Origin: a virus
Strand: one strand, 5' to 3'
DNA: 29,002 bases
Virus record (IMG/VR): IMGVR_UViG_3300020179_000126
Span: 1-29,002 of that record
The position numbers were made by a program, and so were the translations under genes. The notes beneath the pieces were generated by a model that was not told the origin of the DNA, searched no databases, and was given only the letters and a program-made list of their open reading frames with translations. Positions 1 to 25,649 of the stretch are shown in pieces; positions within the stretch are counted from its first letter, which is position 1; each line of letters opens with the position of its first letter.

Positions 1-82
1 TTTTGTGTTCTTTTACAATATCCCGGAGAATGATATCCAGATCGTTTTCATCCATATCATATTCTACATTAATGTTTTTCAT
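1..82 (-). CDS. Partial unrecognised protein, N-terminus only
   Basis: Only the first 27 codons are inside the window; they begin MKNINVEYDMDENDLDIILR and the gene continues beyond position 1. The ATG at 82-80 overlaps the TGA of the upstream ArdC-like gene (81-79) in an ATGA junction, which supports a real, translationally coupled start. The visible part is acidic and too short to assign. It probably shares the late transcript of the ArdC-like gene. Confidence 0.6.
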   Translation of the reverse strand, partial: MKNINVEYDMDENDLDIILRDIVKEHK

Positions 83-1248
83 AGATTTGCACCTTTTTGT
101 TCCACATAATTATTTATATATTCTATAAGGGTTTTTGAGGCATCTTTTATGATATTAAAGTTGCTGGTAACATGTTCTGGGTCAATCTGCCAAAGAGCCA
201 GATACTTTTCGGTGTGAGGGGCTGGAATATCATATTCGCTGAGAACAAAATTTGCCACACCTTCCGCCTGAAGTTCCCGTATTTTTCGTTCCGGCATATT
301 TTCCCGATCTTTCCAATGTAGCATTTCGTGAGCAACTTCATGGATTAGTGTGCTCAAATTTTCGCTAACAAGCTCAATCGTTCCACCCTTACTGACACCT
401 CGGGCACCACCCAGTTCGTCTTCTGCCTTGATATCTATTTTAATGTTGTTCTCTTCTGCATATTGTTTCACGGCATCAAAAATGGTGCGCATGCGTTCAT
501 TTAGGGGCGTGTCATCAAACCATTGAATTTCTTCAGGAATTTCCTTTTCCCGACCAGGAATAGGTTCGGTTTGACTGATATCAAAAACAGGCACAAGACG
601 AAATCGCATCACTTTTTCTTTGATACCAGCAGTGGGATCTTCCCCCACATTTATGTCTCCATCTTTTTGTTTCACCATAATAGGGGCATAAATCATTATG
701 GATCGTTCTCCGGGTTTTATTTTGCGACCTAATTGACGAAACCATGTGTTTTTTCCGGCTACCTTGGAAGCATTTTTTCTTTGCAGAAAGATCAAAATCT
801 GATTATAAAATGAATAATTGCGAAAACGTTTTTGAAACTGAACATATTCCTGATATTCCTTGCTGTTTTTAACATTCAGCACACCGCTTTTCAAAAGTTC
901 CAAAAATTTCTTGAAACGATCTTCCAGATTTTCTCCACCAAATTCAGCAACAGTTGTGTCCGTAAGTTCTTCCTTGTTGAATTCATTTAATTTTTTGATT
1001 GTATTCTTTACAAAATCTGATGCTCCGGCTTCATCCAAAGCACCTGTTTCCCACCGACGTTCCAATGCATTCCATTTGAATCCAAGGGTTTTAATGAAAT
1101 CTTTATTTGTAAATGTTTCATTACCAGCCTGTTTTGGATCAGATAAGTCACTGCTGACAATAAAAATGGTTTTACCTTCAGGAGCAGATTTTTTTTTCAA
1201 AACCAACTTTTCATTTAAAATAGTTTTTATATTTTTAAAACTGATCAT
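79..1248 (-). CDS. ArdC-like antirestriction protein with metallopeptidase domain
   Basis: This 389-aa protein has three parts. Residues about 48-70 (GFKWNALERRWET) resemble the small DUF5710-type domain. Residues about 105-235 look like the ArdC N-terminal single-stranded-DNA-binding domain (SKEYQEYVQFQKRFRNYSFY, then NTWFRQLGRKIKPGE). The C-terminal third carries a zinc-peptidase motif, H303-E304-V-A-H307, with a downstream glutamate near E329 (AEG), as in ArdC and ImmA-like M78 peptidases. ArdC of plasmid pSa protects incoming single-stranded DNA from restriction. Residues 1-13 (MISFKNIKTILNE) look like an added peptide ending in Leu-Asn-Glu, a motif shared with three other late-type proteins here and compatible with capsid targeting and cleavage by a prohead protease (inference). 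A TAAATA box lies 11 bases upstream of the ATG. The ArdC assignment is strong; delivery with the virion is a hypothesis. Confidence 0.85.
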   Translation of the reverse strand: MISFKNIKTILNEKLVLKKKSAPEGKTIFIVSSDLSDPKQAGNETFTNKDFIKTLGFKWNALERRWETGALDEAGASDFVKNTIKKLNEFNKEELTDTTVAEFGGENLEDRFKKFLELLKSGVLNVKNSKEYQEYVQFQKRFRNYSFYNQILIFLQRKNASKVAGKNTWFRQLGRKIKPGERSIMIYAPIMVKQKDGDINVGEDPTAGIKEKVMRFRLVPVFDISQTEPIPGREKEIPEEIQWFDDTPLNERMRTIFDAVKQYAEENNIKIDIKAEDELGGARGVSKGGTIELVSENLSTLIHEVAHEMLHWKDRENMPERKIRELQAEGVANFVLSEYDIPAPHTEKYLALWQIDPEHVTSNFNIIKDASKTLIEYINNYVEQKGANL

Positions 1249-1253
1249 GAATT

Positions 1254-1261
1254 AATAAATA
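1254..1261 (+). promoter_or_regulatory. Late promoter box (AATAAATA)
   Basis: AATAAATA ends exactly 5 bases before the ATG at 1267. It differs from the T4 late box TATAAATA at one position. If transcription starts where it does at T4 late promoters, the message begins at or next to the start codon. Confidence 0.6.
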
Positions 1262-1266
1262 TTTAC
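1259..1266 (-). promoter_or_regulatory. Late promoter box for the ArdC-like gene
   Basis: On the minus strand this reads GTAAATAT and ends 11 bases before the ATG at 1248. It overlaps the plus-strand late box through the palindrome TAAATATTTA (1256-1265), so one AT-rich element may fire both ways. The spacing is longer than at the other late boxes. Confidence 0.45.
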
Positions 1267-1491
1267 ATGGGATTAAGTGACGATATGCGCAAAATGGGCA
1301 ACCTTTATTGTGAAAATCTAGGTCTTGGCCCTCAAGCCAACAGTGCCCTGAATCCTGCTGCAGAAATACCCACGATTGTTCGTCAGGATCCTGAAAAGAT
1401 TTTAAATGAATTTCTTACTTTTCTAAAAGGTATTCAAGGTCCAGAAATCCGCAAGAAGGTAGTTTTGCGGGTGTTGGAAACTATCCTTTGA
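1267..1491 (+). CDS. Unrecognised small protein (74 aa)
   Basis: I do not recognise this family. The protein begins MGLSDDMRKMGNLYCENLGL, has a proline/alanine-rich middle, and ends in a predicted helix (EKILNEFLTFLKGIQGPEIR and following). It is the only plus-strand gene in the left 5.2 kb. Its ATG sits 5 bases after a late-type box, and its end overlaps the end of the convergent helix-turn-helix gene by 11 bases. The promoter suggests late expression and perhaps a minor virion role; function is unknown. Confidence 0.65.
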   Translation: MGLSDDMRKMGNLYCENLGLGPQANSALNPAAEIPTIVRQDPEKILNEFLTFLKGIQGPEIRKKVVLRVLETIL

Positions 1492-1945
1492 TACGATAAA
1501 ACTTGATAGCAGTGATTCTGCTGCCTTCGTCCACAATTCCGCCCCGAAAAATTTCCAATTTTTGATTTTTCACCAAAAGACAAATCATTTTGCGTCCATG
1601 CGATTCGCTAAGTTTTAATTCACGACAAAGCTGAGTAAACGTTTTCCAACCATTACCTTTGGGTCGTTTTTCTTTGCTTTTGGCATACTCCGCGTAAAGA
1701 CGTTTCCAATCCTTTTTTAAAGGATGGTAAAACATTTTGCTTGTCATAACCCGGGTTGTGGTAAGACTGGTTCCGGTTTTCATTTTTATCCGGTTGGTTT
1801 TTAACCCCCATTGCAGAAATTTTTGGCAATTATCCGTGCTGCTTTTGATAATGTCCACAATCTCAAATTTGGTTTTCCAGTTTCCTTGCGGTCTGGTTTC
1901 CTCCTTTTTGATTACAGACTGAAGTTGTTCTACCCATTTAGACAT
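1481..1945 (-). CDS. Tandem helix-turn-helix-like protein B
   Basis: This 154-aa basic protein contains two copies of one roughly 75-residue unit. Each copy has a Pro-x-Gly-(n)-W segment (RPQGNWKTKFEIVDI; RPKGNGWKTFTQLCRELKL), a helix-turn-helix-like stretch (LKLSESHGRKMICLLVKNQK in copy 2) and a strand-rich end closing with FYxxxK (KMFYHPLK; KFYRIKG). The next gene upstream (1930-2451) has the same two-copy plan, so the pair arose by duplication. The start lies inside the end of that gene (16-base overlap), so the two are co-transcribed. I infer DNA binding and possibly early regulation; I cannot name a family. Confidence 0.7.
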   Translation of the reverse strand: MSKWVEQLQSVIKKEETRPQGNWKTKFEIVDIIKSSTDNCQKFLQWGLKTNRIKMKTGTSLTTTRVMTSKMFYHPLKKDWKRLYAEYAKSKEKRPKGNGWKTFTQLCRELKLSESHGRKMICLLVKNQKLEIFRGGIVDEGSRITAIKFYRIKG

Positions 1946-2451
1946 AATTTATACCAGATTTTTCTTTCCAAATAATTTTTATTGGCATTGAATTTATAAC
2001 CATCAAAAGTTTTTACCTGTTTATTTAACCGGTGTTCCCGTATAAGTCTTAGAATTTTTGATTTTCTCAGACCGGTTTTTTTTGAAAGATCTTCTGCTGT
2101 GAACCAATCTGTGCCATTGGGAATGCGTTGACGTTCCATCTTGTATATGTTTTTTAAAAAATATTCCTTCCATGTATATTTTTTGTGGCGGTACCATACT
2201 GCTCTTTTCACAAATCCTTTTGGCGAACGAACCGTTCCCGCATAAATTTCACATTCTTTGCGATTGATTATTTCCGACAAAATGTTTCTGAGTGTGTGAT
2301 ATTTTGCTTTGTTTTTTGTCAGTTCGCATATTTGTTTCAATTCCAACCAACGTTCCCCGGTGGGACGTTTTTCATCCTTGCGCATTTCCTGAAAAAGAAA
2401 ACGTGACCAATTATCTGATTGTACGTTTCTGATTCTAAACTTTTTGCTCAT
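1930..2451 (-). CDS. Tandem helix-turn-helix-like protein A
   Basis: This 173-aa basic protein is a paralogue of the gene just downstream. Copy 1 spans roughly residues 14-92 (EKRPTGERWLELKQICELTK, ending AVWYRHKK). Copy 2 spans about 93-171 (RQRIPNGTDWFTAEDLSKKT, helix-turn-helix-like TGLRKSKILRLIREHRLNKQ, ending KIWYKL). The repeated Pro-x-Gly-x-x-W entry and the WY/FY exit define the unit. A strong promoter of the TTGACA/TAATAT class lies directly upstream, with an inverted repeat across its -10 box, which suggests early expression and perhaps autoregulation. The stop is TAG. DNA binding is inferred from the helix-turn-helix-like pattern only. Confidence 0.72.
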   Translation of the reverse strand: MSKKFRIRNVQSDNWSRFLFQEMRKDEKRPTGERWLELKQICELTKNKAKYHTLRNILSEIINRKECEIYAGTVRSPKGFVKRAVWYRHKKYTWKEYFLKNIYKMERQRIPNGTDWFTAEDLSKKTGLRKSKILRLIREHRLNKQVKTFDGYKFNANKNYLERKIWYKLCLNG

Positions 2452-2454
2452 GAA

Positions 2455-2467
2455 CCGATATTATCGG
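2455..2467. repeat. Inverted repeat over the -10 box (operator candidate)
   Basis: CCGATA-T-TATCGG is a perfect 6-bp inverted repeat with a one-base centre. It covers the TAATAT -10 box of the promoter for the helix-turn-helix pair. A dimeric regulator bound here would block transcription. The binding protein is unknown; the adjacent genes are natural candidates. Confidence 0.5.
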
Positions 2468-2485
2468 AACCGTGAATATTGTCAA
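2458..2485 (-). promoter_or_regulatory. Sigma70-type promoter for the helix-turn-helix pair
   Basis: On the minus strand, TTGACA (2485-2480), a 16-bp spacer and TAATAT (2463-2458) are followed by 6 bases and the ATG at 2451. The -35 is a perfect consensus match and the -10 matches at four of six positions. The expected start point falls on or beside the A of the ATG, so the transcript should be leaderless. The -35 overlaps the stop codon of the metallophosphoesterase gene. Confidence 0.75.
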
Positions 2486-3231
2486 CTATAAACCTTTATA
2501 TTGGTAGGAATTATGTATTTGCGATTGCGTTCTTTAGCTTGATAAACCTCATGAGTATTATCCATATGAATCAAACCAAAAGCCCATCCGTGTTGCCACC
2601 GAAGACGGCGCATTTGATTGCGATTGTATGAAGGGGACAAATTACTCAGACAACCGATATTCCAACCTTCCCGAACATCTGTGCTGACCGACCGGAAATA
2701 ATCAATTGCGTGGGTATGCCCGAACAAAACGTTACCATATACATCAGAATGCTGTTTAGATCCGTGCATATTGTGACCATAACCATGAACAAATGAAAGT
2801 GAACCACATTTATAAACACCTTCTTTGGAATCGTAAGGAAGCATTCGTACTCGTTGCTTTTTACACATTTCCTCGATAGACTCAATTCCTTGACGGGCAT
2901 AATCCCGCTTCAATCCGCTACTGGCATTCAAACGCAGATCATAAATTCTTTCGTCGTGATTTCCCCTCAAAAATACACGCTCAGTACCAAATGAGAAAAA
3001 CTTTTTAAAAAAATCTTTTCCAGCTTCCCAATCCTCGATCATGCTTTGACTTTGCTCGGTGTCTACATCACAATTTCTTCGAATGGCACGAAAATCCCAT
3101 ACATCTCCGATACAAACTGTCAGATCTGGTTTGTAATCTCGCATAAAACTGAACAAACATTTTAATGCTTGCGGATCAGATTCGTCACCGTGAACATCTC
3201 CGGCAGCAACAAACTTTAATGGTTTGGCCAT
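2482..3231 (-). CDS. Calcineurin-like metallophosphoesterase
   Basis: This 249-aa protein has the full calcineurin-like motif set in order: GDVHGDE (residues about 12-18), CIGDVWDF (about 40-47), RGNHDER (about 90-96), VHGYGHN and FGHTHA. These supply the two-metal site. It is shorter than gp47 and lacks a capping domain and a gp46-like partner next to it, so it is probably a separate phosphatase, phosphodiesterase or nuclease; the substrate cannot be read from the sequence. It has its own TTGAAA/TAAAAT promoter and is followed directly by the helix-turn-helix pair, which makes an early unit likely. Its ATG has no Shine-Dalgarno sequence. Confidence 0.9.
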   Translation of the reverse strand: MAKPLKFVAAGDVHGDESDPQALKCLFSFMRDYKPDLTVCIGDVWDFRAIRRNCDVDTEQSQSMIEDWEAGKDFFKKFFSFGTERVFLRGNHDERIYDLRLNASSGLKRDYARQGIESIEEMCKKQRVRMLPYDSKEGVYKCGSLSFVHGYGHNMHGSKQHSDVYGNVLFGHTHAIDYFRSVSTDVREGWNIGCLSNLSPSYNRNQMRRLRWQHGWAFGLIHMDNTHEVYQAKERNRKYIIPTNIKVYS

Positions 3232-3236
3232 AGTTT

Positions 3237-3263
3237 ATTTTACAGATAAAAACGTAATTTCAA
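3237..3263 (-). promoter_or_regulatory. Sigma70-type promoter for the metallophosphoesterase
   Basis: On the minus strand, TTGAAA (3263-3258), a 15-bp spacer and TAAAAT (3242-3237) are followed by 5 bases and the ATG at 3231. Layout and spacing match the promoters of the helix-turn-helix pair and gene 32, and again predict a leaderless transcript. The -35 lies in the last codons of the upstream gene. Confidence 0.62.
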
Positions 3264-3595
3264 GAGGTAGTCTCGGGAATATATTTATTAAGAATTGGTA
3301 TAATTTTATTTTCTAAAATATCAAAAGCATTGCCCGCATCAATTGTTAAATTAATCAAATCTGCTTTTTCACGATCATCTAGCTTGTCGATAAGCAAAGC
3401 TTTACGAATCAGATCAACAAGATACTGAACACCTTGTGTATCAAGCTTGGGTGCTTCTTCGGCAGGTGTTTCAGCAGCCGGTTGTTCCGCTGCAGGTTCC
3501 TTTGGTTGAGCAACATCTTCAGCAGCATCCAGTGTTGCTGGGGGCTGTTCGTTAAGAAGACCGTATTTATTTTTTAAAATATCATCGAATTTCAT
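3260..3595 (-). CDS. Unrecognised late protein with Leu-Asn-Glu N-terminus (111 aa)
   Basis: I do not recognise the family. The N-terminus (MKFDDILKNKYGLLNE) is a short amphipathic stretch ending in L14-N15-E16. It is followed by an acidic Ala/Pro/Glu/Gln-rich segment (residues about 17-50) and then a helical domain (GVQYLVDLIRKALLIDKLDD and onward). The plan resembles T4 prohead-core and internal proteins, whose targeting peptide is cut after (Leu/Ile)-X-Glu. Its ATG overlaps the stop of the upstream 146-aa gene (ATGA), so the two share a late transcript. A virion or scaffold-core role is inferred. Confidence 0.7.
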   Translation of the reverse strand: MKFDDILKNKYGLLNEQPPATLDAAEDVAQPKEPAAEQPAAETPAEEAPKLDTQGVQYLVDLIRKALLIDKLDDREKADLINLTIDAGNAFDILENKIIPILNKYIPETTS

Positions 3596-4032
3596 ACTTT
3601 TATTCCGTCTGCAACTTTTTGCAGTTTTTTCCCTAGTTTTCCAACAATTGCACCGTATGCTTTTTCAATTTGTTTTTGCGGATTCCTGTTGAAAAGAACT
3701 CCTCCTTTTGCATTTCCTCCTGCTAAAATACGAGCTATTTTTAAATCATTAGGAGTCAAACTCCCCCCTGTTAATTTGGTAAGACCGCTAAATTCTTCCT
3801 GATCTTCTTCTGCATGTTTTTCCACTTTGCCGTCCGGAGTTATTTTAAATCTACCCTTTTCACCATCCACATCATAGCTGACAACCGCATTCATTTTTTT
3901 AAGACCTTCATATTTGGCTTTGCCGGACGAAACCATTTTGTCCACCACATTTTGTTGCAGTTCAGTCAATTTTGGCGGTTTGATGTCCAATTTAAGATAT
4001 TCTTGTTCCAACAACTTATGAAATCTTGCCAT
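3592..4032 (-). CDS. Unrecognised late protein (146 aa)
   Basis: No family is recognised. The protein is basic and starts MARFHKLLEQEYLKLDIKPP, with helices near the N-terminus. A short beta segment follows (AVVSYDVDGEKGRFKITPDG), and the C-terminus is Gly/Lys-rich (GKLGKKLQKVADGIKV). It heads a two-gene unit with the 111-aa protein and starts 5 bases after an AGTAAATA late box. Late expression suggests a virion or assembly protein. The LLEQE near the N-terminus is only loosely like the Leu-Asn-Glu motif of its neighbours. Confidence 0.7.
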   Translation of the reverse strand: MARFHKLLEQEYLKLDIKPPKLTELQQNVVDKMVSSGKAKYEGLKKMNAVVSYDVDGEKGRFKITPDGKVEKHAEEDQEEFSGLTKLTGGSLTPNDLKIARILAGGNAKGGVLFNRNPQKQIEKAYGAIVGKLGKKLQKVADGIKV

Positions 4033-4037
4033 GTAAG

Positions 4038-4045
4038 TATTTACT
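4038..4045 (-). promoter_or_regulatory. Late promoter box (AGTAAATA)
   Basis: On the minus strand AGTAAATA is followed by CTTAC and the ATG at 4032, a 5-base spacing identical to several other late boxes here. The TAAATA core is intact. Confidence 0.55.
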
Positions 4046-4580
4046 CTAATTTCATTGAATAATTCTTTTTTAACACGGAATTGGAGAGGTTATATTCTTT
4101 TAAAACCTTTTGTATGTCCTTCATGCTGAAATTTTTACTGCTTTGAATCAGAATGGAGTTTATAATTTTGCTGGCAATTGTTCTGTAGAAAACAGGATCC
4201 GAGGATATCAATTTGCTGAATTGAACGAAAGATCCTTCATATTCAATAACAGTAAAGCTCAGATATTTTTCAAATTTTTTAAGAATCTTGATGCAAACAT
4301 CAAAAAGTTCATCCGAATCAAAATGCTCACAGATTTCCAAATCTTTCAAGCTTTTTTCTGAAATAACAAACACAATGTCTTCAGGTTGACGTTTGATCAC
4401 AAAATTGGACAGCAAAAGGTTTGCCAATTGATACACCAGTATGTTTTTGGCGTCCCGATTCTTCTTCAGGGGTTTTTCAAGCAGCTTAAACTTGTGACAA
4501 GAATCTAAAATCTTGGTTTCCAATTTGTTTGAAAACGCATCCCAAAAATCCACAAATACAATGTTATCCTTTTTCTGCAT
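4041..4580 (-). CDS. Unrecognised protein (179 aa)
   Basis: No family is recognised. I choose the start MQKKDNIVFVDFWDAF at 4580, a 17-base overlap with the upstream GIY-YIG gene. A start at 4631 would add 17 residues and overlap that gene by 68 bases. The protein begins with a hydrophobic strand and an Asp-containing segment (NIVFVDFWDAF), then becomes helical and Lys/Leu-rich, with a second strand near IVFVISEKSL. No signal peptide or membrane segment is evident. It lies in a minus-strand run with the GIY-YIG gene and a 78-aa late protein, so it is probably expressed late. Confidence 0.6.
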   Translation of the reverse strand: MQKKDNIVFVDFWDAFSNKLETKILDSCHKFKLLEKPLKKNRDAKNILVYQLANLLLSNFVIKRQPEDIVFVISEKSLKDLEICEHFDSDELFDVCIKILKKFEKYLSFTVIEYEGSFVQFSKLISSDPVFYRTIASKIINSILIQSSKNFSMKDIQKVLKEYNLSNSVLKKNYSMKLE

Positions 4581-4983
4581 CTTTAAACCAGAACTCCTTT
4601 GGCTTTCCGAGACGGCAATTAATAATTCCATTGTAATACTCCGGGTTTTTTATCACTTCGTTCTGAATTTGCAACCTGATCTCTTCATAACCCAGTTCCC
4701 ATTTGCTGCGGCAAAACCGAAGTATTTCAAACCGAAAATTTTCTTTCCCATATTTTTCAATATCCTCGTTAAGTTCCCGGCAGGAACCTGTGTATGTTTT
4801 CCAATCACTCTCAGAATATGAAATTTTGCTGTTTTTGCGGCTCTTCAGTTTTCTTTTTTTGCGAAATTGAAGTTGTTTTTTTCCAATATATTTGCGGTTG
4901 TTTTTAAGATTTGTTATCAAATAAATAAAACCAAAACTGTCCGCCTCAAAATTTTTACAAATCCAATGCCCATTATCGCTCAT
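4564..4983 (-). CDS. GIY-YIG-type endonuclease-like protein
   Basis: This 139-aa protein has a GIY-YIG-type entry: FGFIYLITNL (residues about 17-26) and KYIGKKQL (about 32-39). A Lys/Arg-rich stretch follows, then SDWKTYTGSCRELNEDIEKY with GKENFRFEILRF. This layout is common among small free-standing phage GIY-YIG proteins. The canonical G-I-Y is F-I-Y here and the family glutamate is not certain, so activity is unproven. It could be a mobile (Seg-like) homing nuclease or a domesticated relative. The ATG at 4983 lies 3 bases after the TGA of the 78-aa gene. Confidence 0.75.
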   Translation of the reverse strand: MSDNGHWICKNFEADSFGFIYLITNLKNNRKYIGKKQLQFRKKRKLKSRKNSKISYSESDWKTYTGSCRELNEDIEKYGKENFRFEILRFCRSKWELGYEEIRLQIQNEVIKNPEYYNGIINCRLGKPKEFWFKDAEKG

Positions 4984-4986
4984 GGA

Positions 4987-5223
4987 TCACACCCTTCGAC
5001 GTTGTACCAAAATCTTCTTTTTTTTCTTTTTCTTATTTTTTTTAATTTCACCAAAAACAAAAGGAATACGAGCATCTCCGGGGGCATAATTGTCTCCGCT
5101 ACTGATTTGAGACGGAGGATTAAAAATACTGCCGATGCTTGGTCCACTTCCAAACACACCCCCAACGCCTGCCACATTGTCTTCATTTAGTATTTTGATA
5201 AAAATGTTTGAAAAAAGACCCAT
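4987..5223 (-). CDS. Small late protein with Leu-Asn-Glu N-terminus and polylysine tail (78 aa)
   Basis: The N-terminus is short and hydrophobic (MGLFSNIFIKILNE, L12-N13-E14). A Gly/Ser/Pro-rich middle follows (NVAGVGGVFGSGPSIGS). The C-terminus is extremely basic: KKNKKKKKKK, then a short strand and QRRR. The preserved Leu-Asn-Glu and basic tail fit a small internal virion protein that is cleaved in the prohead and binds packaged DNA, but that is inference; I cannot name the family. A perfect TATAAATA late box sits 6 bases upstream of the ATG. Confidence 0.72.
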   Translation of the reverse strand: MGLFSNIFIKILNEDNVAGVGGVFGSGPSIGSIFNPPSQISSGDNYAPGDARIPFVFGEIKKNKKKKKKKILVQRRRV

Positions 5224-5229
5224 ATCAAG

Positions 5230-5237
5230 TATTTATA
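5230..5237 (-). promoter_or_regulatory. Late promoter box (perfect TATAAATA)
   Basis: On the minus strand TATAAATA is followed by CTTGAT and the ATG at 5223. It lies in the 19-bp gap between the divergent 78-aa gene and uvsY, marking the border between the left late block and the replication block. Confidence 0.7.
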
Positions 5238-5242
5238 TATTA

Positions 5243-5635
5243 ATGGAACCAGAAAAACTACTGGAAGAACTAAAACAGTTTCTTCAGTTTGACGAACTTA
5301 ATTTAAAAGAAAAACAATTGATGTTACCCAGCATCAAACACAGATATGCAACAATTTACATTCAAACAAAACGAGAACTAGGCGATTTGCATGCAGAACG
5401 AAAGCGCAAGTTGCGAACTGTGGTAGATGAAATAAACCGAGAATCCCCGATAAAACTCAGTTTAATTTCTGCTGAAAAACTGGCTTCAGACCATGAAATT
5501 GTTTTAGAGATAGACAAAAAAATAAAAAACAACGAATTGATATTGGAAATATGTGAAAAAAGTGAAAAGATTCTAAGCTCGGCAAGCTTTGATATCAAAA
5601 ATTTAGTCGAATTAATCAAACTTGAAACAAATTGA
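5243..5635 (+). CDS. uvsY: UvsY-like recombination mediator
   Basis: This 130-aa, highly charged helical protein begins MEPEKLLEELKQFLQFDELN. It matches the T4 UvsY plan (137 aa): an N-terminal L-x-E-L-K segment, a central helix ending in E-x-K-x-K-L-R (RELGDLHAERKRKLRTVVDE), and a C-terminal helix with a D-x-x-x-L-x-x-D motif (SDHEIVLEIDKKIKNNELIL). Identity is low, but its place directly before uvsW, as in T4, strongly supports the call. UvsY loads UvsX recombinase onto gp32-covered single-stranded DNA. I use the ATG at 5243 because earlier in-frame starts run into the divergent gene and late promoter. Confidence 0.72.
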   Translation: MEPEKLLEELKQFLQFDELNLKEKQLMLPSIKHRYATIYIQTKRELGDLHAERKRKLRTVVDEINRESPIKLSLISAEKLASDHEIVLEIDKKIKNNELILEICEKSEKILSSASFDIKNLVELIKLETN

Positions 5636-7047
5636 ACTGCATATATCTAGATAAATCAAAAAAGTTTGGGATGGTAGAATCTCCACATATTCAGATGATT
5701 CGAAATCATTTTTCGTGTGAAAATAAAATAGCAAAACATATGCGTCGTAAAGGTTATTATATTGCGGATCGTTTGTATGCCATAACGCCGTTAGGAAAGT
5801 TTGATTTAGGTTTATTTTTTTCCATTTTCAGATACATGACTGAAACGCTAGGGTTAGAACAAGTAAAAGTTGATTCTGAGATTTTGTCCAAAGTTAATCC
5901 CATAAGATCAAAAATTAATGTAGAATATCTTCAATATGAGCCCCGAGACTATCAAAAAGAAATGTGTGAGAAAGCTTTTCGATTTGGTCGAGGAATATTT
6001 GAAGTTGCCACCGGAGGAGGAAAAACATATGTGATGGCTTTATTGTGTCATAATATTTTAAAGAACGGTTTAGCGAAAAAAATTCTCGTACTAGAACCGG
6101 ATTTGGGTCTTGTAGAACAGGTTTATGAGGAATTTAAAAAATGTGGATTGAGATGTGATATGAAAAAATATACCGGAGAAAATGATTTTGACGGAAATTG
6201 CCAGGTGGTGATCGCTAATATTGGTGTATTGAATGCTCGGGGCGATGAAAAAATAAAAGATTGTGACGTGATAATCATTGATGAAGCACACAAATATAAA
6301 CGAGGAAACAAAATCAACAAAGTTTTGGACAAGATAGATGCAAATATACGATTTGGATTTACCGGAACTTTACCGGATGAAAAAGAGGATATATTTTGCA
6401 TAGAGGGAAAAATAGGACCGACAATTTATAAAAAAACAAGTGTAGATCTTAAAGAGTATCTTTCGCAAGCAACCTGTAACGTAATTGAATTGGATTATGA
6501 AAATCCGCCGGAATGGTGTTCACCGGACGATATGAAAAGATACCGGCAAGAATATGAATTTATAATAAACAATGATTCCCGGAACAAAATCATCAGCAAA
6601 CTTAGTTGTAATTTACAAAATAATACTCTTGTTTTGATAGATCGAATTCAGCACGGATTGGATTTGCAAAAAGTTTTGGAAAAAATTTGTGAAAATAAAA
6701 AAGTATTTTTTATACGGGGCGAGGTTGAAGTTGAATCCCGAAATGAAATTCGGCGCATCATGGAGCAGGCTGCCAACGTTGTTTGCATCGCCATAAGCAG
6801 CATTTTTGCAACCGGAATTGATATCAAGAATCTTCACAATATTATTTTGGCAAACGCTGGAAAAGCCAAAATACGTTTATTGCAAAGCATAGGACGTGGG
6901 TTAAGATTACATCCCTCCAAGGAAAAACTTATGGTTATTGATTTAGCCGACCAACTTTATTATGGAAAAAAACATTTTGAAAAAAGATATGAAATATACC
7001 AAAAAGAACAAATAGAAACCAAGAAAACAAGATACAAAATTATATGA
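5632..7047 (+). CDS. uvsW: UvsW-like SF2 helicase
   Basis: This 471-aa protein has SF2 helicase motifs in order: a YQKEM Q-like segment, Walker A ATGGGKTY (GGGKT near residue 126), DEAH (D217), GFTGTLP (motif III-like), DRIQHGLDL, and IGRGLRLHP (motif VI). The N-terminal ~95 residues match the small UvsW domain that precedes the helicase core. T4 UvsW unwinds branched recombination intermediates and R-loops, and switches replication from origin to recombination mode. The start is TTG, overlapping the uvsY stop as TTGA. The next ATG would remove part of the N-terminal domain, so TTG is preferred. It forms one unit with uvsY and gene 55. Confidence 0.92.
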   Translation: MNCIYLDKSKKFGMVESPHIQMIRNHFSCENKIAKHMRRKGYYIADRLYAITPLGKFDLGLFFSIFRYMTETLGLEQVKVDSEILSKVNPIRSKINVEYLQYEPRDYQKEMCEKAFRFGRGIFEVATGGGKTYVMALLCHNILKNGLAKKILVLEPDLGLVEQVYEEFKKCGLRCDMKKYTGENDFDGNCQVVIANIGVLNARGDEKIKDCDVIIIDEAHKYKRGNKINKVLDKIDANIRFGFTGTLPDEKEDIFCIEGKIGPTIYKKTSVDLKEYLSQATCNVIELDYENPPEWCSPDDMKRYRQEYEFIINNDSRNKIISKLSCNLQNNTLVLIDRIQHGLDLQKVLEKICENKKVFFIRGEVEVESRNEIRRIMEQAANVVCIAISSIFATGIDIKNLHNIILANAGKAKIRLLQSIGRGLRLHPSKEKLMVIDLADQLYYGKKHFEKRYEIYQKEQIETKKTRYKII

Positions 7048-7562: not shown

Positions 7563-8569
7563 AAACAATAACCAAAAAATCTCTTCTTTTTGCCGATCTT
7601 CATTTGGGCATTCACCAGAATAGTCCCAAATGGCATCAGCTCGCTTTGGATTGGGCTGAATGGGCCAGAAAAATTGCTGTTCAAGAAGGTGCAGAATCCA
7701 TCGTTTGTCTGGGGGATTATTTCCATGATCGGGACCAGATTGATGTTTCTACTTTGAATATTGCAAGAAAAGTCTTGGACAGGTTTTCAGATTTTAAAGT
7801 TTATTTAATAACTGGCAATCACGACATTTATTTTAAAGAAAAAAATGACATAACCTCCTTGCATGTATTTCAGGGATATCCGTATGTGAATGTTGTAAAC
7901 GATACGACATCATTCAAATACGGAGATAAACAAATTAACATGGTTCCTTGGACAGACTCATCATATGAAAAAAATTATGAGGCGGATGTTGTATTAACTC
8001 ATGCGGAATTCAAACATTTTAAGATGAATAATAGCAAATTTTGTGAAGAGGGCTCTGATTTAGAAAAATACAATGAAAAAGAACGGCTTATTCTGGCTGG
8101 TCATTTTCATATCAGTGATGTCCGAAAAATGAATAAATTAATAGCTGGGTATTTGGGAAACCCATTTCAGCATACTTTTGCAGATATTAACAACAACAAA
8201 TATGCTTATGTTCTTGATTTGGAAACCATGAGTTTGAAAAAATTCGAAAATGAATTTTCACCTCGACACGAAATAATTAGATATTCAAAAAAAGAAACGC
8301 CGAAAAGAAAAAATTCTATTGTGCGTGTTATCTTTGATGTGTCTGATACCACAGAAAAATATACGAGTTTTTCCAGTCAAATACAGAAAGAATTCACACC
8401 ATTTACCCTGCTTACCCAGACGGATTTTGAATTAAAAAGTGAATCTGAATCAAATGAAACTAATATAGGGTTTGAACAAATGTTAGAAGAATTTATTAAT
8501 GGAATGGAAGTGGAACATAAAAAAGAAACCTTGGATTATTGCAGTAATCTTTACAAAAAGTGTGCCTAA
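7559..8569 (+). CDS. 47: gp47-like recombination nuclease (Mre11/SbcD type)
   Basis: This 336-aa protein is close in size to T4 gp47 (339 aa). Metal-site motifs appear in order: ADLHLGIH (D13, H15), LGDYFHDR (D53), TGNHD (residues 85-89), LTHAEF (H148) and AGHFH (residues 180-184). The C-terminal 110 residues form the capping and gp46-contact region. With gp46 it makes the Mre11/Rad50-type exonuclease that resects ends for recombination-dependent replication. The start is TTG overlapping the gene 55 stop (TTGA); the alternative ATGs lie far downstream and would remove the first catalytic motif. Confidence 0.95.
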   Translation: MKTITKKSLLFADLHLGIHQNSPKWHQLALDWAEWARKIAVQEGAESIVCLGDYFHDRDQIDVSTLNIARKVLDRFSDFKVYLITGNHDIYFKEKNDITSLHVFQGYPYVNVVNDTTSFKYGDKQINMVPWTDSSYEKNYEADVVLTHAEFKHFKMNNSKFCEEGSDLEKYNEKERLILAGHFHISDVRKMNKLIAGYLGNPFQHTFADINNNKYAYVLDLETMSLKKFENEFSPRHEIIRYSKKETPKRKNSIVRVIFDVSDTTEKYTSFSSQIQKEFTPFTLLTQTDFELKSESESNETNIGFEQMLEEFINGMEVEHKKETLDYCSNLYKKCA

Positions 8570-10347
8570 TGCAATCCATAAATTTTAAAACAGTTTATAT
8601 AAAAAATTTTCTTTCTGTGGGGGAAACCCCAATTACAGTTCAGTTTGAAAAGGGTCTTTGCTTGATTACTGGTCAAAATCTGGACAAACCGGAAAGATCT
8701 AATGGTGTTGGTAAAAGTACCATAGCAGATGCCATTCATTTTGCTTTATTTGGAGAAACTATCCGAGAAATAAAAAAAGATCTAATACCGAATTATTACA
8801 CAAATGGAAAAACTGTTGTTAATATAACATTTGATGCGTTCAATGACAGTTATGAAATAATTCGTACAATCAATCCAACCACAGTCAAACTGATGAAAAA
8901 TTCAGTGGATGAAACCAAAGACACCATTGCAAATACAAATGAAACAATTCAAACCTTGATTCACTGCACAAGTAAAATATTTAACAATTGTATTTCACTG
9001 GGTATCAACAGTAGCAATTGTTTCATGAACATGAAGAAGTCTGAAAAGCGGGAATATATCGAATCTATCTTGGATTTGGATATATTTTCAGAAATGACAG
9101 AATTGTGCAAAGGTGAACTTTCAGAGGAAAGAAAAATCCGGGAAGGACTAAATGCCAAAAAAGAAACCTATGAATCTATTCAGGATGATTATAAAAAACA
9201 AAAAGATGAATTTGAAAACAAAAAAAAGAAAAACATAGACGAACTGGAAACAAAGATAAAATCCCTGCAAACAAACATAACTGTTCTAAACAAAGAAATT
9301 GAGAATCTGCAAAAGACTGAGCAGATCGATTACTCTGAAAAGATAAACCGAGCCAAAAATGCATTGAAAGTTATAGAGCAAAAAGCAAATGAATCAGATA
9401 AAAATATAGCAGCCAAGCAATCTGAAATCAAAAGCATCCAGAAAAATCTGAATGAAATCAAGGAAAACATTGATGTTTGTCCTTCTTGTTTACGGGAAAT
9501 AGATGAAAGCTGCAAGGATCATGTGGAAAATAGAAAAAAAGAAATGCAACAACAAATAGAAAAAAATGAATCCCTTATTCTAGAAGAAACTGAAAGATGT
9601 AAAAAATTACTGTCAAAAAGAAATGATGCAGAAAAAATAATTGATGCTCTTCAAAAAAGAGAAAAACAATTTGAAAAAGACAATTCTAAACAGGAACAAA
9701 ACAAAAAACTGATTGAACAAATACAATTTTCCATCAAAGACGTTGAAAATCAGATTGAAAAAGAAAAGAACCGAACAGAAAATTTTGACAAGACCATAGA
9801 AGACAACAAAACCAAACTCGTGGATTTACAGAAAAAAATAACCGAAGCAGACCAAAAAATTTATATTTTAAATAATAGTAAATTTATTTTGAGTGATGAA
9901 GGTCTTAAAAGTGTATTTATTTCAAAAATAATAAATCTTCTCAATAACAAAATAAACCATTACTTAAACAAATTGGATGCCAACTCTCGCATAACTTTTG
10001 ATCATTACTTTGAGGATAGCTTGACAGATGCAATAGGTAAGATTGCAAGCTATGCAAACCTGTCCGGGGCAGAAAAAAAAGCAGTGGATTTGGCTTGCAT
10101 GTTTTCTTTTATGGAAATGCGAGAACTTCAGAATTTTCCCATGTTTAATTTTGTGCTGTTTGATGAAATATTTGATAGCAGTTTTGATAAAAAAAGTGTT
10201 CAACTTATCACAGACATATGTGAAGAAATTGCCCAAACCAAATGTGTTTTCATTATTAGTCACCGAAAAGATGCAATTTATTCAAATAACTATAAAACTA
10301 TAAACTTACAAAAGAAAAGTGGCATAACAAACTTGCTTGAAAATTAA
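8569..10347 (+). CDS. 46: gp46-like recombination ATPase (Rad50/SbcC type)
   Basis: This 592-aa SMC-like ATPase has an N-terminal Walker A (GVGKST, residues 46-51). Long coiled coils follow (about 190-300 and 310-435, rich in E, K, Q and N) around a zinc hook, C304-P-S-C307. The signature is NLSGAEKKAVDLA (about 497-509) and Walker B is FVLFDEIFDSSFD (about 529-541). The T4 homologue is 560 aa. The Walker A loop is longer than usual: eight or nine extra residues separate the Gly-Gln-Asn from the Gly-x-Gly-Lys-Ser/Thr. The ATG at 8569 overlaps the gene 47 stop (TAATG); an upstream GTG at 8560 is less likely. It pairs with gp47. Confidence 0.95.
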   Translation: MQSINFKTVYIKNFLSVGETPITVQFEKGLCLITGQNLDKPERSNGVGKSTIADAIHFALFGETIREIKKDLIPNYYTNGKTVVNITFDAFNDSYEIIRTINPTTVKLMKNSVDETKDTIANTNETIQTLIHCTSKIFNNCISLGINSSNCFMNMKKSEKREYIESILDLDIFSEMTELCKGELSEERKIREGLNAKKETYESIQDDYKKQKDEFENKKKKNIDELETKIKSLQTNITVLNKEIENLQKTEQIDYSEKINRAKNALKVIEQKANESDKNIAAKQSEIKSIQKNLNEIKENIDVCPSCLREIDESCKDHVENRKKEMQQQIEKNESLILEETERCKKLLSKRNDAEKIIDALQKREKQFEKDNSKQEQNKKLIEQIQFSIKDVENQIEKEKNRTENFDKTIEDNKTKLVDLQKKITEADQKIYILNNSKFILSDEGLKSVFISKIINLLNNKINHYLNKLDANSRITFDHYFEDSLTDAIGKIASYANLSGAEKKAVDLACMFSFMEMRELQNFPMFNFVLFDEIFDSSFDKKSVQLITDICEEIAQTKCVFIISHRKDAIYSNNYKTINLQKKSGITNLLEN

Positions 10348-10368
10348 AAATATATATTAATTAAATTT

Positions 10369-11589
10369 ATGTTTACACCAGGTAATCCTTACGTATCCAA
10401 TCCTCTGCTTCAGGCAGCAAGTCAATACACCAACAAAATAGTTCCCCAACAGCTTACACCCACTCCTGCGCAGCCTGACAACATTCCGGATAGGGGAATC
10501 AATTATCTGGCGGATTATAGTGGTTGTGGTCATTGGCGTTTGATCTGGCCCGAAATGATCCTGAATGCTCATAATAAAATGACTATGCACAGTACAACTG
10601 TAATGTGTTTAGATCCTCGTTATTACATTCATACCAAAGCAGTTCGTGTGCAACGCCAAGCAACCGAGCATCAGCTAAAATTTGTGCAATTTCTCAAACA
10701 ACTGGGCCAACAACAGGGGTTTCGCCTCATGTATGAAATTGATGATCTTGTGTTTCACGAGGACATTCCTGATTACAACAAGTTCAAAACAGCTTTCATA
10801 GATCCAAACATCCGTAAACAAGCTCAAGCCATCATGAATGAATGTGATGAAATCACCGTAACATGCAAATTCATGAAGGATTATTATGCGGAAAAGACCG
10901 GACACAAGAATATCACCATTATTCCTAACTATCCTCCCAAGTTTTGGATGGGCAATTACTATAATCTGAAACGCATCAGTGAAAACTATGATGCTTTTCA
11001 AAAAAAACCTCGTATTCTTTATGCAGGAAGTGGTGCACATTTTGATGTGGAAAACCGGATAGGTCAAAATGATGATTTTGCACATGTTCTGCAGGCAATT
11101 GCCGACACCAAAGACAAATATCAGTGGGTTTTCTTTGGGGCGTTTCCCATGATGTTCCGACCCCTGGTTGAACGGGGTATTTTTGAATATCATCCGTGGG
11201 CCGAGCTATACAACTATCCAGGCAAAATAAATGATATGAAAATCAACATGATGATTGCCCCCCTGCAAAACAATAATTTCAATAAAAGCAAAAGTGATTT
11301 GAAATATATTGAGGCTTGTTGTTATGGGTTACCAATTGCTTGTCAAAATCTTTGCACTTATGAAGATGCACCTTTCAAATTTGATACCGGGGATGAAATG
11401 ATCAAAACAATTGAACAGGTTTTAAGCAAAAAATCAAAATACATGACACATTGTGAACGGGCCCGGGCATATGCTGAAACTCGGTGGCTGGAAAATGATG
11501 ATAATATCAACAAATATGTGGAATTGTACAAATATCCTTATGGTGACAAAAGAAGGGTGTTGCTAAACAAATACAATGGTTTAACCTAG
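10369..11589 (+). CDS. GT-B glycosyltransferase (group 1/GT4-like)
   Basis: This 406-aa protein has a GT-B plan. An N-terminal domain contains MYEIDDLVFHEDIPDY (residues about 121-136), and IIPNYPPKFWMG lies in the linker. The second Rossmann domain begins RILYAGSGAHFD (about 215-226) and ends in the donor-binding EX7E-like segment SDLKYIEACCYGLPIACQN. It probably transfers a sugar from a nucleotide donor; the acceptor could be modified phage DNA, a virion protein or a host surface glycan. It sits between genes 46 and 43, an unusual place for such an enzyme, and ends with TAG. A weak TTGAAA/TA-rich element precedes it, but read-through from gene 46 is equally possible. Confidence 0.82.
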   Translation: MFTPGNPYVSNPLLQAASQYTNKIVPQQLTPTPAQPDNIPDRGINYLADYSGCGHWRLIWPEMILNAHNKMTMHSTTVMCLDPRYYIHTKAVRVQRQATEHQLKFVQFLKQLGQQQGFRLMYEIDDLVFHEDIPDYNKFKTAFIDPNIRKQAQAIMNECDEITVTCKFMKDYYAEKTGHKNITIIPNYPPKFWMGNYYNLKRISENYDAFQKKPRILYAGSGAHFDVENRIGQNDDFAHVLQAIADTKDKYQWVFFGAFPMMFRPLVERGIFEYHPWAELYNYPGKINDMKINMMIAPLQNNNFNKSKSDLKYIEACCYGLPIACQNLCTYEDAPFKFDTGDEMIKTIEQVLSKKSKYMTHCERARAYAETRWLENDDNINKYVELYKYPYGDKRRVLLNKYNGLT

Positions 11590-11594
11590 TCGGT

Positions 11595-14180
11595 GTGTAC
11601 AGGCATGCCACATATGATCCGTTAAATCACGCCATCCGTTTGGCCACATGGTCTGAAACGGGGCAAAGAATCACGGTCAATCGCACTTATTATCCTTATT
11701 TGTATGTTGAAACCAACGGCCAAAATGACGAAACATCATTATATAATACAAAATTAAAGAAAAAAACTTTCAATTCATCCAAAGAACGACGATTGTTTGC
11801 GGAAAAAGATGAGAATAACCGAATATTTCATAATTTCACGTGTTCGCAGCAGTTCCTGATCGACGAATTTTCAAGCGAGATAGACAATCCAGACTTTGTT
11901 AAACACCCGTTAAAGATATTTTATCTGGATATTGAAACATACAGTCCAGACGAGTTTCCAGAACCTGACTTGGCCAAAGCTCCGGTCAACGTGATCACTA
12001 TTTATGATAGTTTGAGCCAGACATTTCATAGTTTTGGGCTACATCCATACGATTCTCACGACAATGTTGTGTATCATTACTGCAAAGATGAGGTTGTTTT
12101 ACTTAGAAGCTTCCTGGAATTCTTTGAAAAAGATTATCCGGACATTGTTGCAACCTGGAACGGAGAACTTTTTGATATTCCTTATCTTGTTAACCGGATC
12201 AATCGGGTGTTGAGTGAAGATGATTCCAAAAGATTGAGTCCTTATCGAAATCTTATTGGCAAAGAGATATTCACGAAATTCGGAAGAAAAGCAGAGAAGT
12301 TTTATATTGAAGGAATTGCCAATCTGGATTATATGAACGTTTACAAAAAGTTCTGTCCGATCCAGCGAGAGAGCTATTCGCTCGGATCCATCGGTGCTTT
12401 GGAACTGGGGGAAACAAAAGTTGAATATGAGGAAAGCAATCTTTCGTCGCTGGCCGACAAGAACTGGAAGCAATTTGTAGAATATAACATTCAGGACGTT
12501 AATCTGCTTGTTAAGCTGGAAGAAAAACTCAGTTATTTGAGCATTTTACGTTCTCTTTCACATGTGGGTTTGACCAATTTGGAAACTGCCATGAGCACAA
12601 TCAGCATTGTGGCAGGTGCCGTGGCCATTCAAGCCAAGAAAAACAACAAGATCATACCCACGTTTCCTCACAAAGAAGATGACGGGGTGACAATTGAGGG
12701 GGGTTTTGTCAGCGAACCACAACGGGGATTTCATGAGGCTGTCATTAGTTTTGATGCCAATTCATTGTATCCCAATCTGATTCGTACCTGTAACATGTCT
12801 CCGGAAACCAAAGTGGGAACCATTGATGGTCAAAATGATGATGGTACCTATACCTTAACGCATGCCAGCGGAAAGAAATACCGACTAACAGAGGAAAAAC
12901 TTAATATCTTTATTGAAAAAGAAAATCTGGTCCGCACAAAAATAGGAACATTGTTTTACCAAAAAGAAGAGGGTCTGGTTCCTCAAATTGTTGCAGAAAA
13001 TTATAAAAAACGGGTGGATATCAAGCGGGAACTAAAGAAAATCAAACGGGAACTGCTTTCTCTTTCCAAGGATTCGCCCGAATACAAACAAAAAAAGAAC
13101 CGGGAATCTGTGCTCAACAACAAACAGTATGCGCTTAAAATACTCATGAACAGTATCTATGGGGCATTTGCCAACAATTTTTTCTTTCTTAGTGACCGGG
13201 ACATTGCCCGAAGCATTACTCTTACAGGTCAGACCGTGATCAAACATGCAAACGAGATTATTGAAAATTTCTTTGTGGAAGCTGGAATTGACCGGGAAAT
13301 ATTAAAAACAAATCCACCCACCATTTACAATGACACAGATTCTGTTTACATCTCCATTCAGCCGTTGATTGAAAAAAATAATATAAAATTATTGAAAAAA
13401 GACAAAACATTGTCTTCCGAAGCTGAAAAATTGATCGAAAACCTGGAAAAATATATAAATGAAAAGATATGTGATTGGGCCAAGAAAGAACTAAACAGCA
13501 ACAAACCCACCCTGGAATTCAAACGGGAAAGCATTTGTGATGTGGGTATTTTTATTCAAAAGAAACGCAATGTGCTTCATGTCATAGACGAAGAAGGTGT
13601 TCCTTGTGACAAAACCAAGTATACAGGAATTGAGGTTGTTCGCAGCACCATGACAAAAGAAGTTAAAGTTTTCAACAAAAAAATTATTGAAACCATGCTG
13701 AAAACCCGGGATCCTTCCCAGACAAACATCATCATGGACAAAATCTATGAAGAATTCCAAACCAAACCGGAAAACGAGCTTTCATTTGTGGTGGGAATTA
13801 AAAATTACGAGAAATATGCGGACTCCTGCAACGAACTGACAACCATAAAAGGAATGCCTGTGCATGTGAAAGCCGCGTATTATTACAATTATTTCATCAA
13901 AACCATGAAGCTGGACAAGAAATATGAAAAAATAAACAGTGGCGACAAGATTCAATATTACTATGTGCAGCAACCAAACAAATATGCTTTAACAGTGATG
14001 GCGTTTAAAAATCGTCTGCCCGAGGAGTTCAAGGACATTTTCCCTATGAACAAAGAAAAGCAGTTTGAAAAACTTGTATCGGAAACCATGCGCAAACTAT
14101 TTGAACCAGTAGGATGGCAAATCCGGGAACCAAGCCAGATGAATTATGCCAATTTGGAATTACTTTTTTCTGACGACTGA
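11595..14180 (+). CDS. 43: gp43-like family B DNA polymerase
   Basis: This 861-aa replicative polymerase (T4: 898 aa) has 3'-5' exonuclease motifs LDIETYSPDEF (D112, E114), WNGELFDIPYLVNR and YNIQDVNLLVKLE. Polymerase motif A is SFDANSLYPNLIR (D387), motif B KILMNSIYGAFANN and motif C YNDTDSVYIS (D580, D582); FIQKKRNVLHV is the KKxY-like segment. The C-terminus (ANLELLFSDD) resembles the sliding-clamp-binding tail of T4 gp43. All catalytic residues are present, and I see no intron, intein or split. The start is GTG, 5 bases after the upstream TAG. The end overlaps the convergent 263-aa gene by 21 bases. Confidence 0.97.
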   Translation: MYRHATYDPLNHAIRLATWSETGQRITVNRTYYPYLYVETNGQNDETSLYNTKLKKKTFNSSKERRLFAEKDENNRIFHNFTCSQQFLIDEFSSEIDNPDFVKHPLKIFYLDIETYSPDEFPEPDLAKAPVNVITIYDSLSQTFHSFGLHPYDSHDNVVYHYCKDEVVLLRSFLEFFEKDYPDIVATWNGELFDIPYLVNRINRVLSEDDSKRLSPYRNLIGKEIFTKFGRKAEKFYIEGIANLDYMNVYKKFCPIQRESYSLGSIGALELGETKVEYEESNLSSLADKNWKQFVEYNIQDVNLLVKLEEKLSYLSILRSLSHVGLTNLETAMSTISIVAGAVAIQAKKNNKIIPTFPHKEDDGVTIEGGFVSEPQRGFHEAVISFDANSLYPNLIRTCNMSPETKVGTIDGQNDDGTYTLTHASGKKYRLTEEKLNIFIEKENLVRTKIGTLFYQKEEGLVPQIVAENYKKRVDIKRELKKIKRELLSLSKDSPEYKQKKNRESVLNNKQYALKILMNSIYGAFANNFFFLSDRDIARSITLTGQTVIKHANEIIENFFVEAGIDREILKTNPPTIYNDTDSVYISIQPLIEKNNIKLLKKDKTLSSEAEKLIENLEKYINEKICDWAKKELNSNKPTLEFKRESICDVGIFIQKKRNVLHVIDEEGVPCDKTKYTGIEVVRSTMTKEVKVFNKKIIETMLKTRDPSQTNIIMDKIYEEFQTKPENELSFVVGIKNYEKYADSCNELTTIKGMPVHVKAAYYYNYFIKTMKLDKKYEKINSGDKIQYYYVQQPNKYALTVMAFKNRLPEEFKDIFPMNKEKQFEKLVSETMRKLFEPVGWQIREPSQMNYANLELLFSDD

Positions 14181-14951
14181 TTTTTTACCAACAAGATCAC
14201 TGGGCTTTCTCACATTCCGACCAAACTTTTTCTTGATGGCCCCAATCCAGGCTTGATTCAGGTTTTTCAAACGAGTCACTTCTGCTTTTAACTTGTAAGC
14301 ATCTTCTTCTGGTTCGGTGGGAGTTTCTGCCGGGGATGCAATCGGAGCAGGTGTGGGTGCAACTGTTTCCTCACTTTTTTTGGCATACGTATCTTTATCA
14401 ATTTTTGCTTTTTCTTCCGGAGAAAGTTTTGCATAGTCTTTAGGATCCATAGTTTTGGGTTTAGCAGCAGGTTCGGTCACAACTTTTCCGGCATCAGCAG
14501 CGGGTTCAGCTGTTTTTGTTTCAGGTGATGTTTCCTTTTCGGGTTCTGTTGTTTTGGCGGGTGTGCTGATTGAAGTCTGACCATAAAGAAGTGTTTCAAT
14601 CGCACCTTTTTGAAGATTGTCAAAATCCATGCTGCTGTGATTTTTTGTAAAATATTCTAAAGCCTTATTCTTATTGACTTCCATGTTTTCATCGGCCCAA
14701 CGACGGCTATTCAGAAACTTGTCAAACGTATCTATGGCTTTTTCCCTATTTGTTTTAATGTCCCCCTTCTTTGCGAAACGAGGATACCAGAATCTTGTCC
14801 ACATATCTTTATATGTGTTGTAACGCATTTTGTCTTCGCTCCTTATTTTCAATCCACCCAAGAAATCCATAATACCTTCGTTAAGTTGTTTATCTTCAAG
14901 ACTTTTTGCTAGAACATACGCCTCGAATATTTTGTGGGACTCTTGATGCAT
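14160..14951 (-). CDS. Unrecognised late protein with Leu-Asn-Glu N-terminus (263 aa)
   Basis: This is the only minus-strand gene within the replication block. I place the start at 14951 (MHQESHKIFEAYVLAKSLED) rather than the longer frame to 15044, because an AATAAATA late box ends 5 bases before this ATG and the longer frame would overlap the next gene. L23-N24-E25 is followed by Gly, as at T4 prohead-protease sites. A helical, Trp/Tyr/Lys-rich domain follows (about 26-125), then a low-complexity Ala/Pro/Glu/Thr linker (about 128-210) and a basic helical end (KLKAEVTRLKNLNQAWIGAI). It is probably a packaged or prohead-core protein (inference); the family is unknown. Confidence 0.72.
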   Translation of the reverse strand: MHQESHKIFEAYVLAKSLEDKQLNEGIMDFLGGLKIRSEDKMRYNTYKDMWTRFWYPRFAKKGDIKTNREKAIDTFDKFLNSRRWADENMEVNKNKALEYFTKNHSSMDFDNLQKGAIETLLYGQTSISTPAKTTEPEKETSPETKTAEPAADAGKVVTEPAAKPKTMDPKDYAKLSPEEKAKIDKDTYAKKSEETVAPTPAPIASPAETPTEPEEDAYKLKAEVTRLKNLNQAWIGAIKKKFGRNVRKPSDLVGKKSVVRKK

Positions 14952-14956
14952 AATAT

Positions 14957-14964
14957 TATTTATT
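14957..14964 (-). promoter_or_regulatory. Late promoter box (AATAAATA)
   Basis: On the minus strand AATAAATA is followed by ATATT and the ATG at 14951: a 5-base spacing. It gives the isolated minus-strand gene its own late transcription inside the early/middle plus-strand block. Confidence 0.62.
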
Positions 14965-14968
14965 ATTG

Positions 14969-14995
14969 TTGCTTTTCTAAATCGTGTGGTTAAAT
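14969..14995 (+). promoter_or_regulatory. Possible sigma70-type promoter for the uvsX unit
   Basis: TTGCTT (14969-14974), a 15-bp spacer and TTAAAT (14990-14995) are followed by 6 bases and the ATG at 15002. The match to consensus is moderate, but spacer and start distance equal those of the gene 32 promoter. TTAAATG could also be read as a weak late box. Confidence 0.4.
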
Positions 14996-15001
14996 GTTCG
15001 T

Positions 15002-25643: not shown

Positions 25644-25649
25644 ATAATA

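Follow-up and report, generated by a model that had tools for sequence, protein, structure and literature searches.

Candidate T4-type head-targeting propeptides and a capsid-arm mimic in an uncultured T4-like phage

Do short N-terminal peptides found on dissimilar proteins carry them into the head of an uncultured T4-like phage? The question is raised by IMGVR_UViG_3300020179_000126, a 29-kb IMG/VR fragment (the window hereafter, meaning the whole stretch of 29,002 nucleotides) on which translation points to UvsX, gp43, gp46/47, gp41, gp32 and gp45-type genes; for UvsX a separate match agrees. An earlier note on this DNA had pointed to a Leu-Asn-Glu (LNE) tripeptide near the start of four proteins as a capsid-targeting signal, and translation of the open reading frames (ORFs) finds it at exactly the residues given there: MISFKNIKTI-LNE in an ArdC-like protein (residues 11-13), MKFDDILKNKYGL-LNE in a 111-aa protein (residues 14-16), MGLFSNIFIKI-LNE in a 78-aa protein (residues 12-14) and MHQESHKIFEAYVLAKSLEDKQ-LNE-G in a 263-aa protein (residues 23-25). 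All four genes are on the minus strand, and each scores as coding. We consider it likely that these N-termini serve as T4-like propeptides for capsid targeting and that the 78-aa product is a tethered mimic of the capsid protein's N-terminal arm with its tail by the DNA; the ArdC-like protein would then plausibly be injected.

In T4, the prohead protease gp21 cuts after L/I-X-E to remove propeptides of 10-19 residues; in the IPIII signal, which is 10 residues long, processing depends on residues 8 and 10 (PMC9026906). The cleavage rule of the present phage can be read from a sister contig, IMGVR_UViG_3300013131_000036 (78.7 kb), which was reached via UvsX identity and is 92-94% identical in DNA to the first 24.5 kb of the window. 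It encodes a gp21-type prohead protease (PF03420, E = 1.6e-29) and the gp23 capsid protein (PF07068, E = 3e-90), whose sequence ...AWCMINE62/DNTAGNGG aligns with the T4 cleavage site ...SFLTE65/AEIGG (slashes mark cut sites here and below). The earlier note had held that a protease and capsid protein following an unrelated rule would refute targeting; since the sister-contig gp23 aligns with the T4 site and T4 gp21 cuts after L/I-X-E, INE62/DN fits the same rule, and that refutation fails. Glu13, Glu14 and Glu16 of the ArdC-like, 78-aa and 111-aa proteins likewise suit a (L/I)-x-E peptide of about 10-19 residues, and the 263-aa protein does so through a site that had been overlooked, IFE10/A. 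The positions that are hydrophobic in T4 targeting peptides (4 and 7 of the 10-mer) are so in the ArdC-like and 78-aa proteins, and not in the 111-aa and 263-aa proteins.

The surprise among the four is the 78-aa protein. Behind LNE14, at the residue aligned with the gp23 cleavage site, its sequence DNVAGVGGVFGSGPSIGSIFNPPSQISSGDNYAPGDARIP closely follows the mature N-terminal arm of gp23, DNTAGNGGVFGSGASIGAAFNPPGKITSGDNYAQGDARLP, with about 30 of 40 residues identical; the sister-contig mimic likewise matches the arm of its own gp23 at 30 residues. The four proteins had been said to share nothing else, a statement that does not survive here, the mature body of the 78-aa protein being common with the capsid protein. 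Only the arm is held in common with gp23: the protein has no Pfam or PHROG match, and the HK97-type capsid domain (PF07068) is not found in it. Relatives occur in dozens of T4-like contigs; all 53 complete ones (53/53) keep a hydrophobic-x-E site, and the mature forms carry a median net charge of +9. The arm also appears inside larger proteins: genome G043 has it in mid-protein, and in genome G040 it forms the end of an acetyltransferase-like protein. A separate 182-aa ORF (L227/L228) has the N-terminus MEFSKLVETTLTE/Q and a C-terminal capsid-arm mimic with a basic tail, that is, propeptide and arm on another body. Directly after the mimic gene, the window encodes a SegE-type GIY-YIG protein (4564-4983), for which the best PHROG (447) is labelled 'NAD synthetase', apparently a misnomer; genomes G010 and G019 also have a similar gene after the mimic.

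Overall, the mimic follows the capsid protein of its own genome. Mimic-capsid similarity within a genome is 0.514 versus 0.274 when permuted (28 pairs, p = 2e-5), and with one pair per arm type it is 0.474 versus 0.267 (12 pairs, p = 2e-5); the tracking holds within cyanophages alone (p = 1.2e-4). Across six genomes, residues identical between mimic and arm use the same codon 62 times, versus 68 expected from codon usage. Because codon agreement is at chance level, the DNA copies must be old and the match held by selection at the protein level; an origin of the mimic by recent duplication or gene conversion is rejected on the same ground.

Cultured phages have counterparts. A tblastn search of the 78-aa protein against them returned nothing relevant, because the arm differs by phage, and the cultured-phage mimics were instead found with a profile of these phages' own gp23 arms. 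In cultured cyanophages the non-capsid protein T4-GC426 (PHROG 696) starts with a copy of the cyanophage-type arm, usually the phage's own, as in S-SSM4 (mimic SPTMSVGTGGFSGSSAATGPTAGFDPVL, own gp23 APTMAAGTGGFSGSATATGPVAGFDPVL). This protein is annotated 'major head protein' (once gp23) in P-SSM4, Syn19, S-SM1, S-MbCM100 and other RefSeq cyanophage records, and the true gp23 lies elsewhere in the ten such records checked; the label apparently arises from the N-terminal copy of the capsid arm. Like the 78-aa protein, T4-GC426 is a second protein, distinct from the capsid protein itself, that carries a copy of the gp23 arm at its N-terminus and continues into basic residues; it differs in its length (123-288 aa in those read), an added conserved domain and a propeptide that is reduced or missing. 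The 78-aa protein has no significant match to the PHROG 696 profile, and the two have only the principle of architecture in common. No close relative of the mimic was found in a bacterial genome collection, which thus gives no clue to the host, and a gp23-arm mimic was not described in the literature searched, with most subscription journals outside that search.

The wider propeptide signal is not the LNE tripeptide itself. Among 2149 non-redundant proteins from 17 T4-like kin genomes, [LI]NE occurs at a rate of 1.5 per position; about 0.6 of the 36 window genes are expected to have it within their first 25 residues versus 4 seen (p about 0.004, a Poisson estimate made by hand and post hoc), so that the tripeptide by itself exceeds chance only modestly. 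A fifth LNE, at residues 24-26 of a 144-aa protein (21058-21492), lies between gp32- and gp45-type genes in an early/replication context and is likely a counter-example; the tripeptide is therefore not specific, and not every LNE is a signal. We drop LNE as such in favor of [LI]xE, the pattern that is enriched and conserved. With Glu at residue 10, [LI]xE is found in 82 kin proteins versus 24 per position elsewhere, a rise that is weaker in unrelated viral contigs (28 versus 15, ratio 1.8). The stricter T4-type pattern, which also requires the T4 positions to be hydrophobic, has its maxima at Glu10 and Glu13-14 in the kin genomes and shows no rise in proteins of the control set, 162 random non-T4 viral contigs that replaced lambda-type contigs found to be near-identical; at positions 8-17 it reaches 3.3% in kin versus 1.35% in controls (p = 3e-4). 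A late box stands ahead of 53% of genes with such N-termini versus 28% of other genes (p = 1.6e-6). From the kin and control enrichment figures, the motif alone supports a single protein as targeted at roughly 60%.

Late boxes in the window are less uniform than the earlier note had stated, which gave one to all four genes directly or through the gene ahead. Among these genes the exact T4-type box is confined to the 78-aa gene, the ArdC-like and 263-aa genes have boxes with one mismatch, and the gene ahead of the 111-aa gene offers only ...AGTAAATA, with two mismatches. What the comparison does strengthen is the reading of the N-termini as targeting signals. The kin genomes contain two N-terminal classes, MKTFKQFLxE/ and MNKDSHLIFE/AY, and the 263-aa protein falls into the second. 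A recurring class MNKDSHLIFEAY(K/R) is seen on otherwise dissimilar proteins of genomes G010, G019, G024, G031 and others; 12 of 15 have a late box within one mismatch, and the three members compared with Pfam gave no match. In the cyanophage S-SM1, the cytidylyltransferase T4-GC190 is reported as detected in purified virions by mass spectrometry (PMC3037559); its N-terminus is MKKFSAFLNE/AERSF, with the cut point predicted. Cytidylyltransferase-like proteins of two kin genomes, assigned by weak family matches, start with MKPFKQFLTE/ and MKTFRQFLIE/. Outside the window, the sister contig encodes two small basic proteins (75692-76146; L115:15692-16146), MNFNDLVTQLLEE/ATKKKAKRDACYHKV... and MTQNFDNLVDSLINE/AKFSLEKKYG..., which are likely further members of the head-targeted set.

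The predicted sites are kept in relatives of the individual candidates. In the 111-aa family, a hydrophobic-x-E followed by Q/A/D near the start is present in 29/29 relatives. The gene directly ahead of it encodes an additional candidate that had been missed, a 146-aa protein whose LLE/Q is kept in close relatives. Relatives of the 263-aa protein have LNEG in 8/8 and IFE in 7/8, with IFQ in the remaining one. In six relatives of the ArdC-like protein, L11 and E13 are invariant and residue 12 is N, S or T. Its assignment comes from PF08401 (ArdcN; 26.0 bits against a cut-off of 22.6), PHROG 7245 (anti-restriction; E = 2e-12) and a C-terminal HExxH metallopeptidase motif, LIHEVAHEMLHW, of which HEVAH is invariant in the same six relatives. 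No sequence match was found in the PDB, a predicted structure (mean pLDDT 34, from a 6-row alignment) was left unused, and PADLOC returned no match.

How might these parts work together? The short amphipathic N-terminal peptide would bring each protein into the prohead core and there be cleaved off behind (L/I)-x-E by a gp21-type protease, so that the mature protein would remain beside the DNA in the head. In the 78-aa protein, the cut after LNE14 would expose a near-copy of the mature gp23 arm, behind which comes a polycationic tail. The N-terminal region of T4 gp23, once cleaved, is disordered inside the prohead, reaches the outer surface on expansion and forms an N-arm and an N-fist touching four subunits (PMC9958956). 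The mechanism we hold most likely is that the mimic arm occupies the gp23-arm binding site, or the position of the arms on the inner face before expansion, and thereby fixes the positively charged tail to the shell, beside the DNA; the internal proteins of T4 make contact with DNA phosphates through their lysines (PMC3012670). Whether there is a distinct class of T4-like head proteins whose docking module is a copy of the mature arm of their own capsid protein, changing in step with that protein, we regard as evenly balanced. Were it so, the arm would anchor cargo or DNA-neutralizing tails in a capsid-specific way and would so far have been hidden under the label 'major head protein'. The ArdC-like protein would be an injected anti-restriction factor, as are T4 IPI and the P1 Dar proteins. 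Two parallels make its injection with the DNA plausible: P1 DarA-Hdf, an injected antirestriction protein that sits on the inner capsid face and binds both capsid and DNA (PMC12810830), and ArdC itself, which moves with DNA in conjugation (PMC5512222).

Several observations weigh against the combination of propeptide targeting and arm docking. Background is expected to account for about 40% of proteins with such a motif, LNE25 of the 263-aa protein lies outside the 10-19-residue range of T4, and the 111-aa propeptide lacks a hydrophobic residue at one T4 targeting position. On the mimic side, a second copy of the arm is missing from T4 itself. Several cyanophage mimics have no propeptide and begin within the arm, and those of S-RIM2, Syn19 and S-MbCM100 resemble another arm type rather than closely matching their own. 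Nor is the own capsid arm always the single best match (median rank 3.5 of 28 over all pairs, or 1 among the 12 arm types), which also holds in the clade of the window. If the LNE tripeptides had arisen by chance or belonged to N-terminal amphipathic helices of a generic kind, without any part in targeting, one would understand the mild [LI]xE rise near the start of unrelated viral proteins and the LNE of the replication-region protein; this explanation is nevertheless improbable, for the enrichment is clearly stronger in T4-like kin, the T4-type pattern does not rise in controls, hydrophobic-x-E persists even in distant relatives of two families, and the site of the 78-aa family coincides with the gp23 cleavage site.

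Other roles can be imagined for the mimic. The most serious, possible though doubtful in our view, makes it an outer or cement protein that moves outward on expansion like the N-fist and fills arm sites closed to gp23, for example at the vertices or portal. The mimic does copy the very region of gp23 that travels from inside to the outer surface and contacts four subunits in T4 (PMC9958956), and it follows its own capsid protein, but its strongly basic Lys/Arg tail better suits contact with DNA inside and its propeptide points to core loading. Since the residues flanking the gp23 cleavage site recur in it, the mimic could also act as a decoy or timer that vies with gp23 for the protease gp21; we think this very unlikely, as the similarity continues about 40 residues downstream of the cut, far beyond the reading range of gp21, and some cyanophage versions that begin within the arm have no cut site. 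A decaying partial duplicate of gene 23 would account for the clear gp23 similarity and is hardly credible otherwise: the gene has its own propeptide, late box and conserved basic tail, its reading frame and arm are conserved across many divergent genomes, and the codon comparison indicates an old copy whose protein match has been kept.

The propeptide-and-arm reading extends known systems in several ways. As with the targeting sequences of T4 IPI-III and Alt, a short N-terminal peptide ending in (L/I)-x-E stands on unrelated cargo, in part behind late boxes, with gp21 and gp23 following the same rule; the peptides here are longer and more varied (Glu at 10-25) and include the second class, and among the cargo are an ArdC-like protein and a capsid-arm mimic, neither known from T4. 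The 78-aa protein resembles the T4-type gp23 arm and N-fist from the cleavage site up to the GDARxP stretch, but it has no capsid fold and consists of an arm with a Lys/Arg tail, encoded by a separate, probably late gene with its own propeptide. The ArdC-like protein has the ArdcN domain and HExxH metalloprotease motif of ArdC from plasmid pSa. Phage P1 packages its Dar proteins in the head, where DarA is cut by the prohead protease, and entering DNA is protected; unlike pSa ArdC and P1 Dar, the predicted carrier here is a T4-type targeting peptide. The pattern gives a rule by which the internal, probably injected proteins of the abundant T4-like phages, uncultured and marine, can be recognized from sequence; it also suggests that entering phage DNA is accompanied by an ArdC-like anti-restriction protein. 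The arm mimic points to a mode of protein-to-capsid attachment that we have not found described, and its recognition would correct a widespread misannotation.

Table. Positions of the candidate head proteins, their predicted parts and associated late boxes in the window
Feature	Position	Strand	Description or basis
ArdC-like protein	79..1248	-	ArdcN domain, HEVAH metalloprotease motif
ArdC-like candidate head-targeting propeptide MISFKNIKTILNE	1210..1248	-	L11/E13 conservation
Late box, ArdC-like gene	1267-1260	-	TGTAAATA, one mismatch
111-aa protein	3260..3595	-	propeptide, acidic Pro/Ala linker, small conserved domain
111-aa candidate propeptide MKFDDILKNKYGLLNE	3548..3595	-	conserved site in relatives
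146-aa protein	3592..4032	-	N-terminus MARFHKLLE/Q; directly ahead of 111-aa gene
78-aa protein	4987..5223	-	propeptide, capsid-arm mimic, Lys/Arg tail
78-aa basic tail ...KKNKKKKKKKILVQRRRV	4990..5061	-	translation
78-aa arm mimic, residues 15-54, DNVAGVGGVFGSGPSIGSIFNPPSQISSGDNYAPGDARIP	5062..5181	-	similarity to gp23 arm
78-aa propeptide MGLFSNIFIKILNE	5182..5223	-	predicted cut after E14; aligned with gp23 INE62/D
Late box, 78-aa gene	5230..5237	-	exact T4-type TATAAATA, directly ahead of gene
263-aa protein	14160..14951	-	MNKDSHLIFEAY-type N-terminal class
263-aa candidate propeptide	14877..14951	-	two sites, IFE10/A and LNE25/G
Late box, 263-aa gene	14964-14957	-	AATAAATA, one mismatch

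Elsewhere in the window, positions 24258-28765 encode three paralogues of 461, 445 and 455 aa in which units of the LLPDGRVFCVP type recur, in a propeller- or kelch-like manner; exact TATAAATA late boxes are present at 24050 and 25650, and the three are probably host-recognition or tail proteins.

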